Origin: Nautilus pompilius
Taxonomy: Eukaryota > Mollusca > Cephalopoda > Nautilida > Nautilidae
Assembly (NCBI GenBank): GCA_018389105.1
Contig: JACATO010001081.1
Coordinates: forward strand, 1-64,000
DNA: 64,000 nucleotides
Reading direction: 5' to 3'
Shown: positions 35,500-41,600 of the stretch, in pieces
How the letters are laid out: the number at the start of each line of letters is the position of its first letter
How positions within the stretch are numbered: position 1 is the first letter of the stretch
Translations under genes and position numbers: made by a program
The notes under the pieces: model-generated
Seen by the model: only the letters and a program-made list of their open reading frames with translations
What the model was told of the DNA's origin: nothing
Database searches by the model: none

Positions 35500-36550
35500 G
35501 TAGATTCTATATTGGCCCAAAGCAAATAAGGGACATGATCACACTGAACAATAGATTTTCAATGGCCTATGAATCATACTGTGATCAAGATAAAACATGG
35601 GCACCTCTTGTGGTCTGTGAACATGCGGATCAGCACTAGAAGGATGGCTGAGAGGAGATTGTAAAGCAATGCCGGTAATCCCTCATATTTGGTGAAAGCC
35701 TAAGAATCACATAGATGACTTTTGTCTAGTGGATGTCAACTGACATGATATTGTGTATCCAAATGTTCCATCACCCACCATTACATCAGTTCCACACAAT
35801 GATGACCTTCCAGTGCCATAGTGACAATCCAAAGAAACAGATTCATCATCAGAAAGTAAAAGTTCACCTGCAGATGAAAAATGATTCTGACTTAAATTCA
35901 AGAAGTTTCATTTTCCAAATCAGCAAGAACTGAATGACGTAGTACAAAATTTAGGTTTAACAAAATCTAATGCTGAACTTCTTGTATAGGCTGAAAGAAT
36001 GGAAATCTCTCCATTGAGCTTGGCAAGGAGTCTCAAAGCAGTCCTTCACAATGGAAACAAATATCCATCAATACCCATTGGCCATTCTGTACATATGAAG
36101 GAGAATTATGAAAATGTTAAGTTTCTGCTGGAGACAATTGACTACAAAAAATATAACTGGGATGTTTGTGGAGATTTTAAGATTGGTTTTTTTGAAAGGA
36201 CTGGAGGAGGATTCACAAAATACTCATGCTTTCTGTCTTTGGGATAGTTGTGCCACATCACAGCGTTACAGAAGAAAAGTGTGGCCAGCCAGAGATCAGT
36301 TTATTCCTGGGATGCACAATTAATTGAGGATTTAATCAATGAGTGTGAAAATTTGGATGCAGAATGTGTCTCAAGCTTTGCATCCTTCATTCTCATCTAG
36401 ATTTCTTTGAAGACAACATGGGAAGTTTCAGTAAAGAGCATGGTGAGGGATATCAGGAAAGATGGGATGTCAAAATGATGGGTGACTATATTTGGGGGTC
36501 TAATTCATGATGATACTTCATTGCAAGGAAGGAAAGCCCAAAAAGTTGTG
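35500..36550 (+). pseudogene. Relic of an uncharacterised repeat-associated protein family, copy 1
   Basis: Decayed + strand coding sequence in Fox intron 1. Recognisable blocks in order: CDQDKTWAPLVVCEH near 35580, part of a cysteine-containing N-terminal region; PSPTITSVPHNDDLPVP near 35770; LNDVVQNLGLTKSNAELL near 35932; then an open segment at 35999-36247 with AVLHNGNKYPSIPIGHS and NWDVCGDFKIG. After frameshifts comes GYQERWDVKMMGDY near 36450. The block order matches copy 2 at 39725-41250 on the other strand. I recognise this as a multi-copy, unnamed family I associate with arthropod, cnidarian and mollusc genomes. I cannot give it a function. Several stops and a deletion before the last block show that it is dead. 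Confidence 0.75.
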
Positions 36551-38526
36551 CATTTTTTATTTCTGCAACTGCAATTTAGATTTTTACTGTACTTAAGAAT
36601 TAAATGTAATGAATAGATATTTTTCATGAGTTAAGATGATTGTTTCTTTTTGGTTTTGGAAAAGTAAGTTAGTTGTACCCATATTATCAGTAATTATATG
36701 TTATAAAATGTTTAAAGTAACATTCTGAGGGAAAAACTGATACTTTAGAAAAAACCAGTGCATGCTATGTTAGTAATCAGCTCACCAAAACTGGCCATAA
36801 CCGATTGAACAATCGGGATAACTGAAAACGTTTTGAAAATTTGTTACAGATTTTAAAATCTCAGGTTTTCCATTCTAAATTATAACAAGATGTGAAATAT
36901 TTAGTGTAATTTATTTCAATAATATATAAAAAAAAACATTTTAATTAAACCTTGGCTAGGTGATTAAAGTTAGATTTAAAGGAAGCTAGTTTTTTTTGTT
37001 TTTTTTTTTGCTAACACTAAGAGATCACAATTTTTATTTATATCCAGAAATTGAAATTATTTTAACAACCTTTTTTTTTTTTTTACTATTTCATTATTTA
37101 AAGCCTTATCTGTGCATTTCTGGAAGATTGGTTCAGTAGCACTAACTTTCTTTAATTTATTAAAGTCATGATAGAAACTTTACATTATTTTTCTGATATA
37201 CAAAGTTGTTATATTTGGCATCCATCATCTACATAGCTGATGAGGTGTTGCAGCATCATTGTTACTGCTAATGAGCATTACCATTTTCAGTACCTCCATG
37301 AGGTCTACAGTAAAAGCTAAAATGTATAAGAAATCCATGCTAAGGAAGATTTTTCAAATTGTCTGTTTCAAATAGGATTAGAATTTTGGATTCTTAGGCT
37401 GATACATTCATTTAGTAATCTGCCACCATACGTGGATTTAAAGAATAATAATAATAAAAAAAAAACATTCAAGTGTTTGGATGAAGTCTAATTTTTCTGA
37501 GTTTTTTTCTTTGATATTTATTACTTGCTGGTATATCACTCTTTTTGTGAAAGTAATTGTATATTCATGATGGATCAAAATGTTGAGTTTATTGTACTAA
37601 GTGAGATAGGGAAGCACATAAGAGAAAAATAGGCAATGCCATATGATGGTGATCACTGCTGTGACAGTTGCAGAAGACTGCACTTTGAATTAGCCTTTTT
37701 AGCTATGTTGGAACTCTCATATGCTTTGTAACTATTTTACATAAATCATTAGTCATCTCTTAACACCTTTGCCTTACACTTAGTCTTTAAAGTGCAATAT
37801 GCAAAAATTATATAGTGTAATAATTGCTGATGTATAGAAAATTCCTACAGCATTTTCCTTTATAGTACATTTCAACAATATCAAAGAAACTGGAAAACTA
37901 TATTTACTATCAACTTTACACTTAATACCTGTTTCTGTCTTATTTTTTGTGTACCTTTCAGAGAAATGAAGCTCATTATCGAATTACTTTGGTTACATAA
38001 TTTTATTCAGGAATGAAGTAATGGTTAAAATTGTTGGAATGCAGTAAGCAAGGTATGACAGTCACTGTCTTGACTTGCATGAGCAGGTTTTCCTTGTTGT
38101 TTATAAGGTGACACATCCAGAAAATCTCATTTAGCTGTTCATTATTCATGTTATCTGCCTTACTGCATAGTAAATCCAAAACCACTTCAAGTCAAGTACT
38201 TCATGTATTGGTTATATGGGGATATTTTTTGCATACAGACTTTACAATTAAAGAGATTGTTTTAAATTTTAAAACACAAGGAACTTATAGTATATTGCTT
38301 ATTTCTATTTCTCACAAATTAATGGAGTAGGCGAAGAAAAACCAATCAGTGTCTCCATTTAATTTTTGCTTGGAAGAGAGCCAATATACTATCTATTTTT
38401 AGTTTTTAACTGAAAACTTCTAACTTAACAATGATTTATTTTTATTTCTCTTGTCTGTTAAAAAAAAAAAAACTTATGTATTGTACATAATTTTGGGTTG
38501 ATGGTATTTTTCTTTTTTTCCCTCAG

Positions 38527-38601: not shown

Positions 38602-41600
38602 GTAAGAACATGCATACAGCATTTCCCAATCATTGCTATTACATCTTGAGAAAATAAGAGACTCACTCATTCATTCAGTGTTCTCATGAGGCATTAGTTT
38701 CTGAATGCCTTTGTTGTCTGGCTAAGTATATGAGTTCCTAACTTGCTTCTGAGCTAGTTCCAACATGTTTTGGACTTCATCAAAGAAAGCCTTGTGGTTT
38801 ATTAGCCTTAGCCTTTTTAGTTTTGTTTAAGCAAACATTTTTGTAAAATGATGTGGTCATTCGGAATTTATTTCTTGTATGATACCATTATAGAACAAGG
38901 CTCGCAATGAAAGTAATGAACCCTAATTGATTGCTAGAAAACCACTATTCAAACAAACCTGAGTCATAGTATACTCCATTTGCAATGGCTACTGTGCTGA
39001 TATCTTTGGTTAACAATGATATTGCTGATTTAATGAATAGAAGCAACATTATACTGTATGACAATAACATCACATTTATCCAAAAAGCAGTTTTTCTGAT
39101 AATTAATTAGAGCTAATAATTCTTAATGACCCTTGTAATACATAGTCTAGGGAAAACCCAAATAAGTTCTAACATAAACAAACTTTGCTTTCATATTTAC
39201 AGAAATCTCTTTTCATATTATTAAAACCATAGATAAAATGAGGTGGGACATTAGTATTACTTTTTTTAAATATCAAGGGGCCATTTAAATGAAACCCAGC
39301 TGAAATAGCATTATCATAATGAGATCTGAGCAGTTTCATTTAAATGCCCCTATTACCTTGAAAAAATACACTGGACAACAAAAAAAATAACTTTTCGTCT
39401 GCTACTGAGGTGTATGTAGGTGTCCTTTTTCAAATCAAGTGGCTGATTCCAAATCTGAGGTCAGAATTGACCCAGCACATCAGGATTTGTAGTTACAGAA
39501 AAATGCCATTTTCAGTCATTGTTTGTTAATAAATCAAGCACATTGCAAAATTGCAAAAAATAGATTCATTTCACAATATAAACATTGTATATTGTACAGT
39601 AACTGTTATCCATAAGCTCAAACACATTGAACATAAACATTAGAAATGCTTTAGGTACTTGATTTTATGCTTGTGAATAGCAGTGGTTTTGTCTCTGAAG
39701 AAATTAACAATAGTCCATCCCCCATCATGTTGGAGTCTCCCCTGATTGTGTGTCTCCATCGCCTTTTTGTTGATGGAACCTCTCACCGTGCTCATCGCTC
39801 ACAGCACCAAGGTTGGCTGGGAGAAAATGCAACTTAAACGACATATGGCAACTGATTTCTTCAAAGGCTTTTATCATGTCTTGTACCAACTCTGCATAGT
39901 TGTCTGCTTTGTGGTTCCCAAGGAAATTGTGGACTACCAGTTTGAAAGTCTGCCATGCAGCCAGCTCTGGTTGGTTAAGCTTTGACTGGAAGACTGGATT
40001 GGAAAATAAATCATGAATTTGTGGTTTGACAAATATTCCAGCCTTCATCTTGGCATCAGTTAAAATCACTCCAAATTTTTCTTTCAGATAAAGAAATCTC
40101 GCACCTTCAACACTCATTGCCTTTACAAAGCTCTTTCTTTGGCCCAGCTTTATATGCAGTGGTGGAAGAAATATTCTTTGCAGATGTACCAGTGGCACAT
40201 GTTGCGCATTGAAATATCCTGGACTATGGTCTGTTCTTGAAGGTCTTTCTTTGATCTTAGTGATTTGCATTGTCTTGGCTATTCCACAAGCACAAGAAGC
40301 ATATGTGCTTGGTATGCCCAAGCTGCAGACCAAACAATTTTCTTATCACTTTTAAGTCACTGCATATGTTCCACTTGTTGTCAGCATATTTAATAAGTTT
40401 CAGTAGAAGTTCCATGGACTCGTACATCTTTCATACCGACAACATGTGCCACAGGCACAGATGGCTTTTCATTGCCATTGTGGAGAAGCACGGCTTTCAA
40501 ACTGAGCTTGTTGGAGTCGATGAATAACCTCTGTTCATCAGAATGGTGTTCATATCCTAATTCATGAGGCCTTTCACATCAGTGCTGTAGCACACGCTAC
40601 TCTCCATCTGGTAGAACACTGCCAAACTAGCATGGTGTACATGAAAAAAGAAATTTTTGTGCCTTCTACCAACAAGTTCTGCTCTGGAAAATGCAAGCCC
40701 AACAATTCTGCTGTTTGCTTAGACAGCTCCAGGTGCCTGACAAGGTCATTTAACTCTTCCAGGTTGATCAGGTGGGGTTGTTTCTTTGACTCCAATTTTG
40801 CTGATTTGTAAAGCTGTTTTATCAGAAGTATCACTACCATCATCACTTTCAATGTCAGCAGTAGCTGGTGGCACAAGTACCGGATTGTCCTAGTCATGTG
40901 GTGTGGATTTTAGTGCTGACTCACAATTGGGATGTGTTATTTTGTTTTTATTTTTCTTAGTGAAATTAGCCACTTTAACAACCATGCAGAAGTAAGTCAT
41001 TCAGATGATTCTTCAGCTCCCGCCACACCGTTGGCACAGCAAATGGCATTGACATTCATTTCCCATTCAACCACTGTCTCAGTCCAGAAGTAGTGTAACG
41101 TGTGGTGCCCATGTCTTGTCTTGGTCGCCCACCTTGCAACCAAAGTAGTGTTTGTTTGTGATCTTGAGACAACTGATTATCTTTTTTCCATTGGTTATGA
41201 GGCATATTTGCCACATACATAGCAAAAGCAGTCTGCACTGTTCAGACACTTTCATCTATTCATATCAGTCTGAAATAAAATAACATTTCATGTATTAAAA
41301 GCTAAATAAAAATAAACAAAACACATTGAAAATATAGATTACTTATGGAACAACTGCCACCATGCCCAAACATTGAGAAGAACAGCGTACAACTGATACT
41401 CCACTACAACGCATGAAGCATGGTATTCATTGTACACGTAAGCAGGTAACCACGTGTTTCTCCCATGTAACCTGCTGTGTACACAGTACTAAAATTCTTA
41501 TGTATTGTGTTAACTCTGATTTCAGATTTAAAAGCAGCATACTTGAATTAGTCTAAGAGAGACTTTTACCTCAGTAGCAAATTGGTTGTTGTGCAGTGTT

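Follow-up and report, generated by a model that had tools for sequence, protein, structure and literature searches.

What are the two broken coding sequences that flank a forkhead exon in the genome of Nautilus pompilius? They lie in a 64,000-nucleotide stretch (GenBank assembly GCA_018389105.1, contig JACATO010001081.1, positions 1 to 64,000 of the forward strand; the window). A preliminary description had taken them for relics of an unnamed multi-copy protein, suggested to be transposon-borne and of a poorly described kind. We searched the host genome for relatives of both copies and compared their ends, flanks and reading frames. The features found in the sequences argue strongly that they are old, dead insertions from two different subfamilies of Chapaev3, a cut-and-paste DNA transposon known from animals and a branch of the CACTA/EnSpm-Mirage-Chapaev (CMC) group.

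In a six-frame reading, copy 1 lies on the plus strand and copy 2 on the minus strand, with stops and frame shifts breaking both. The copy 2 reading recovers copy 1 in a search of the window with E values of 3.9e-14 and 1.8e-13, far beyond chance, and the exon between them has FOXG1 as its best solved relative (E = 2.7e-10). The proposal of two relics of one protein family, inverted around a forkhead exon, was therefore borne out. The transposase pseudogene of copy 1 (35469-36507, plus strand) is internally deleted; that of copy 2 (39676-41248, minus strand) was read in ten frame segments as 533 letters, including X at breaks. A common block order had been described, and it holds for the W-x-x-P-like block (DQDKTWAP, at 35583-35606 in copy 1 and 41103-41126 in copy 2), the ELND...AELL block, the HNGN..PS.P..H block and the block given as LGAVS-E-GE (GSFSKEHGE and GAVSDEHGE in the two copies). 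It does not hold for the KLG-FVKA block, which is present in copy 2 only (PPLHIKLGQRKSFVKA).

The family is abundant in the host genome (728 Mb in 2,558 contigs). Searches with a 205-amino-acid piece of copy 2, a 50-amino-acid piece with the first-Asp block and an 85-amino-acid piece of copy 1 gave 5,532, 2,070 and 2,530 first-look candidates, and since 150 candidates were scored in each protein search, the resulting counts of at least 152, 150 and 150 matches, which include the window's own copies, are lower bounds. With a 181-base query taken from the 5' end, 40 of 386 candidates were scored, which yielded at least 61 matching pieces. Twenty regions, picked mostly for uninterrupted C-terminal frames, were fetched and compared in protein orientation. 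Among copies of copy 2's subfamily, homology stops sharply at inverted repeats, and few flanks are shared. In element orientation these ends read CACTGGACAACAA... and ...TTGTTGTCCAGTG, that is, CACTG...CAGTG inverted ends. We aligned 22 sequences (the 20 regions and both window copies) to the end strings; both ends passed the score threshold in 16, and in nine of these an exact 3-bp duplication, TTA or TAA in every case, abuts the two ends. Across a 13 x 13 grid of offsets the mean was 0.33 of 16, and the next best offset reached 4. By eye, A precedes the element-plus-duplication in 9/9 of the exact copies and T follows it in 8/9. The preliminary description had proposed that the flanks of full-length copies be inspected; the genomic copies, their inverted ends and their target-site duplications confirm a transposon-borne, multi-copy protein, and the N-terminus is cysteine-rich as described.

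Comparison with the 20 genomic regions places the boundaries of copy 2 at 39369 and 41598 (minus strand). We read it as a complete but decayed element of 2,230 bp because both ends are present, with one change. In element orientation it runs from CACTGCACAACAA... (5', from 41598 downward) to ...TTGTTGTCCAGTG (3', 39369). The 5' terminal inverted repeat, CACTGCACAACAA (41586-41598, minus strand), has one mismatch against the 3' repeat, which reads CACTGGACAACAA on the plus strand (39369-39381). A subterminal repeat, TTGCTACTGAGGTA (41567-41580, minus strand), has an inverted partner with two mismatches at 39399-39412 (plus strand); at up to two mismatches this motif has four matches in the window versus 0.32 expected, the other two (38743 and 49677) lying outside copy 2. 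The 5'-side target-site duplication (41599-41601) reads TAA in element orientation, and its 3'-side counterpart (39366-39368) reads TAT, agreeing at two of three bases. A 34-bp inverted repeat (39262-39366), 79% complementary and with a 37-base spacer, reaches as far as 39366, into the three bases that flank copy 2 on its 3' side.

The coding region of copy 2, on the minus strand, begins its cysteine-rich N-terminal domain with CYVCGKY (41204-41224). Three motifs follow in the order CFLC, PPLHIK, HGERFH: CFLCLW (40284-40301) is the C(2)C motif and PPLHIKLG (40142-40165) the LH motif, both of them motifs named in PMC4079192, and HGERFH (39773-39790) is the H(4)H motif. From this motif order, RLFIDS (40513-40530) and ICSDLKV (40347-40367) probably hold the first and second catalytic Asp, and AMETH (39748-39762), after H(4)H, probably holds the catalytic Glu.

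Copy 1 (about 35229-36848, plus strand, delimited by DNA homology) is a decayed element of another subfamily, with 79-90% identity to L037 and 76-88% to L038, its two fetched relatives. It has lost a stretch between the C(2)C region and the C-terminus, the KLG-FVKA and LH regions being absent, and another upstream of SLKAV-LHNGN; its H(4)H motif is altered to HGEGYQ. Both elements extend beyond the limits of 35500-41250 first given for the locus. We also considered, and rejected, a single composite element with the two inverted copies as its limits: the copies come from different subfamilies, and each has relatives with ends of their own.

The ends of subfamilies other than copy 2's were read by eye. 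L037 and L038 start with CACTAGRTAACAA (CACTAG) and end in GTG, and both are flanked by TTA at either end (2/2). A group of four (L029, L031, L032 and L034) has CACTG...AGTG-type ends and exact 3-bp duplications in 4/4 (TAA, TAT, TAA and TTA, respectively; three TWA and one TAT). L035 and L036 (G000:C295:2475300-2478800 and C1048:149200-152700) start with CACTGGTCAACAA, share 95.6% identity across about 2.38-2.39 kb, and have flanks TAA/TAA in L036 and ATA/TTA in L035 (exact in 1/2). Both contain an uninterrupted stop-to-stop frame of 593 codons, or 553 amino acids from the Met of MSRQC, with the C(2)C, LH and H(4)H motifs. Ends of the CACTG...CAGTG type thus occur in three subfamilies including copy 2's, with point changes in some copies. 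Open frames of more than 400 codons occur in 20 of the 150 matches listed for the copy 1 piece, L035 and L036 among them, and the longest listed reach 618 codons. The likeness of L035 to L036 and the long open frames suggest that one subfamily may be young. Beside the Chapaev3 copy in L032, a 102-amino-acid open frame (3371-3676, protein orientation) may resemble the N-terminal part of a mariner transposase.

The elements were compared with Chapaev3 feature by feature. As described in PMC4079192, Chapaev3 elements have CAC/GTG termini and TWA duplications between A and T, the latter backed by empty sites; the transposase, mostly in one exon, has C(2)C, LH and H(4)H as its motifs; there are non-autonomous derivatives with internal deletions; and Garfield_BM measures 2,289 bp with a 556-amino-acid transposase. 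Here, CAC/GTG termini are found in three subfamilies and in L037/L038; exact 3-bp duplications in 9/16 (all TWA), 2/2, 4/4 (with the one TAT) and 1/2 copies of the respective groups; the three motifs in copy 2 and in L035/L036; and sizes of 2,230 bp in copy 2 and about 2.38-2.39 kb, with 553 amino acids, in L035/L036. We assign the elements to Chapaev3 because ends, duplications, size and the C(2)C/LH/H(4)H set match the published group. The likeness extends to Merrow, Garfield and Conan in termini, TWA with flanking A/T, a length of ~2.3 kb, a protein of ~550 amino acids, motifs and deleted derivatives (PMC4079192). L035/L036 have a single open frame, unlike Merrow and Garfield, which have two exons where most other Chapaev3 elements have one (PMC4079192), and the derivatives found here differ in being about 1.0-1.5 kb long and in keeping the C-terminal part of the coding region. 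On this assignment the elements are of a described kind, and such a placement is what the preliminary description had itself named as refuting its claim.

Chapaev and Chapaev3 were reported in Repbase in 2007 and 2008, respectively (cited in PMC4411706), and Chapaev3 copies are documented in a fly (PMC3630058). The literature links the CMC group to Transib and RAG1. A C(2)C motif and an H(3-4)H motif lie between the second D and the last E throughout the EnSpm-Mirage-Chapaev-Transib group (PMC12730594), and, by the literature, our elements share both motifs, and mostly CA..TG termini, with Chapaev proper, Transib and RAG1. A Chapa zinc-finger domain is described in Chapaev3 and is common to RAG1 (PMC4411706), with a Chapa-type N-terminus also in Chapaev; cysteine pairs are present in the N-terminal region here. 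Reported duplications span 3-4 bp in Chapaev and, across the wider group, 2-5 bp; here they are 3 bp. The elements differ from RAG1 and Transib in having no sequence-profile match to them in the PDB, and the Pfam matches of five relatives included no RING finger model.

Several observations weigh against the Chapaev3 assignment. It was made by features rather than by alignment to a named Chapaev3 family. Exact duplications are lacking in 7/16 copies, copy 2 (TAA/TAT) among them, and that of L031 is TAT, not TWA. The ends of copy 1 are unreadable and were not found when it was aligned to the end strings. The end motif of copy 2, at up to two mismatches, occurs three times in the window versus 2.11 expected, not rarer than chance; its weight comes from the fact that homology among genomic copies stops there, not from rarity. 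No Pfam family scored above the cut-off in ten window pieces, five relatives or seven N-terminal fragments, which may be why the protein looked unnamed. RAG1_imp_bd appeared below the cut-off at the N-terminus of 3/7 fragments (E = 0.004, 0.006 and 0.25), and the unrelated PIP49_C was equally strong in 2/7 (E = 0.007 and 0.009). Neither RAG1 nor Transib was among the 11 PDB matches of the profile up to E = 10.

The PDB matches that did appear were taken as chance: flavin monooxygenases made up all ten listed with one piece (best E = 0.09) and 10/11 with the profile (best E = 0.016), the remaining match being a ribonucleotide reductase (E = 0.57). Scans that see only matches to a few short peptide patterns gave 2 + 42 pattern matches in IMG/VR and 21 + 39 in prokaryote genomes, 0 of which were confirmed as relatives, and a literature search with the peptide LHNGN returned no transposon paper by title.

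One competitor to Chapaev3 is an EnSpm/CACTA element proper, with a plant- or fungus-type transposase and the same cut-and-paste chemistry. Such elements also have CAC..GTG termini and 3-bp duplications, and the C(2)C and H(3-4)H motifs are group-wide (PMC12730594). The combination of TWA with A before and T after, an LH motif and ~550 amino acids in ~2.3 kb is, however, the published Chapaev3 set. The ten window pieces and five relatives matched no Pfam transposase family, and hence not the CACTA transposase model that we take Pfam to include. We consider an EnSpm/CACTA element very unlikely.

Many of the genomic copies are deletion derivatives. Relative to copy 2, 18/20 regions are internally deleted, a share that is not genome-wide because the sample was picked for open C-terminal frames. 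Thirteen of the 20 join element position 167-168 to a start at 1292-1343, seven of them exactly 168 to 1292, and this shared junction points to one founding deletion that was then amplified. L011 and L015 have a common deletion of their own (265 to 1184-1188), L028 has a third (51 to 1305), and in L017 and L027 the 5' block ends at 111. In L021 and L023 the match begins only at position 725, and their common flanks suggest a single locus that was duplicated. Over the 3' part, L028 and copy 2 are 94.5% identical, and both are without the HSHLDFF stretch. Their flanks have no similarity at the threshold used; a lesion shared by two insertions whose flanks differ suggests that the element was broken before it moved.

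Derivatives might retain the C-terminal part because a truncated protein is useful, for example by repressing transposition. In favour of this, they keep frames of 165-290 codons open, a single deletion class (167-168 to 1292-1343) makes up 13/20 regions, and the median ratio of nonsynonymous to synonymous divergence (dN/dS) is below 1, at 0.66 (0.35-1.14). Picking regions mostly for open frames, however, biases dN/dS downwards and makes open frames over-represented, and per-site divergence in the 13 derivatives is almost equal at the three codon positions (0.141, 0.139 and 0.159). The L035/L036 pair gave 0.034, 0.035 and 0.032 (dN/dS 0.62). A useful truncated protein has, in our estimate, only a slight chance of being the explanation, and we read the derivative coding sequence, in a sample picked for open frames, as mostly a neutral passenger, perhaps under weak constraint. 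A non-mobile, host-encoded gene family or set of retrocopies, for which listed open frames of up to 618 codons could speak, is scarcely credible given the sharp homology limits at inverted repeats with few shared flanks, the 3-bp duplications at the ends and this near-equal codon-position divergence.

How a Chapaev3 element would move here can be set beside what is observed directly, namely the ends, duplications, protein motifs, deletion classes, the lesion common to two insertions and the intact frames in relatives. An intact element would measure ~2.2-2.4 kb and carry one gene, for a transposase of ~550 amino acids. Its cysteine-rich N-terminal domain would bind zinc and the element ends, and a putative DDE-type catalytic core with the C(2)C, LH and H(4)H motifs would perform catalysis. 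The transposase would cut at the CAC...GTG ends and paste into A-TWA-T sites, repair of which would leave the 3-bp TWA duplications. Copies that lost part of the gene and kept both ends were presumably moved in trans by the transposase of intact copies.

Elsewhere in the window, large tandem arrays occupy 13591-14512 (66-bp units), 8113-8881 (72 (286) bp) and 4846-5311 (48 bp), and an Rfam scan of the window gave no match.

The finding is real but ordinary: a known kind of element in a genome rich in it. It explains an unnamed multi-copy protein as a Chapaev3-type transposase, and with a curated profile such proteins might no longer be taken for mysterious multi-copy genes. We judge it an even call whether at least four Chapaev3 subfamilies inhabit the genome, one perhaps recently active (intact frames, the 95.6% pair), with the older ones having spread largely as derivatives that carry a partial transposase gene and as pre-broken elements; if true, this would be a good natural case of transposase parasitism. 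The Nautilus genome is a rich source of Chapaev3 copies for the study of a group tied in the literature to Transib and RAG1.

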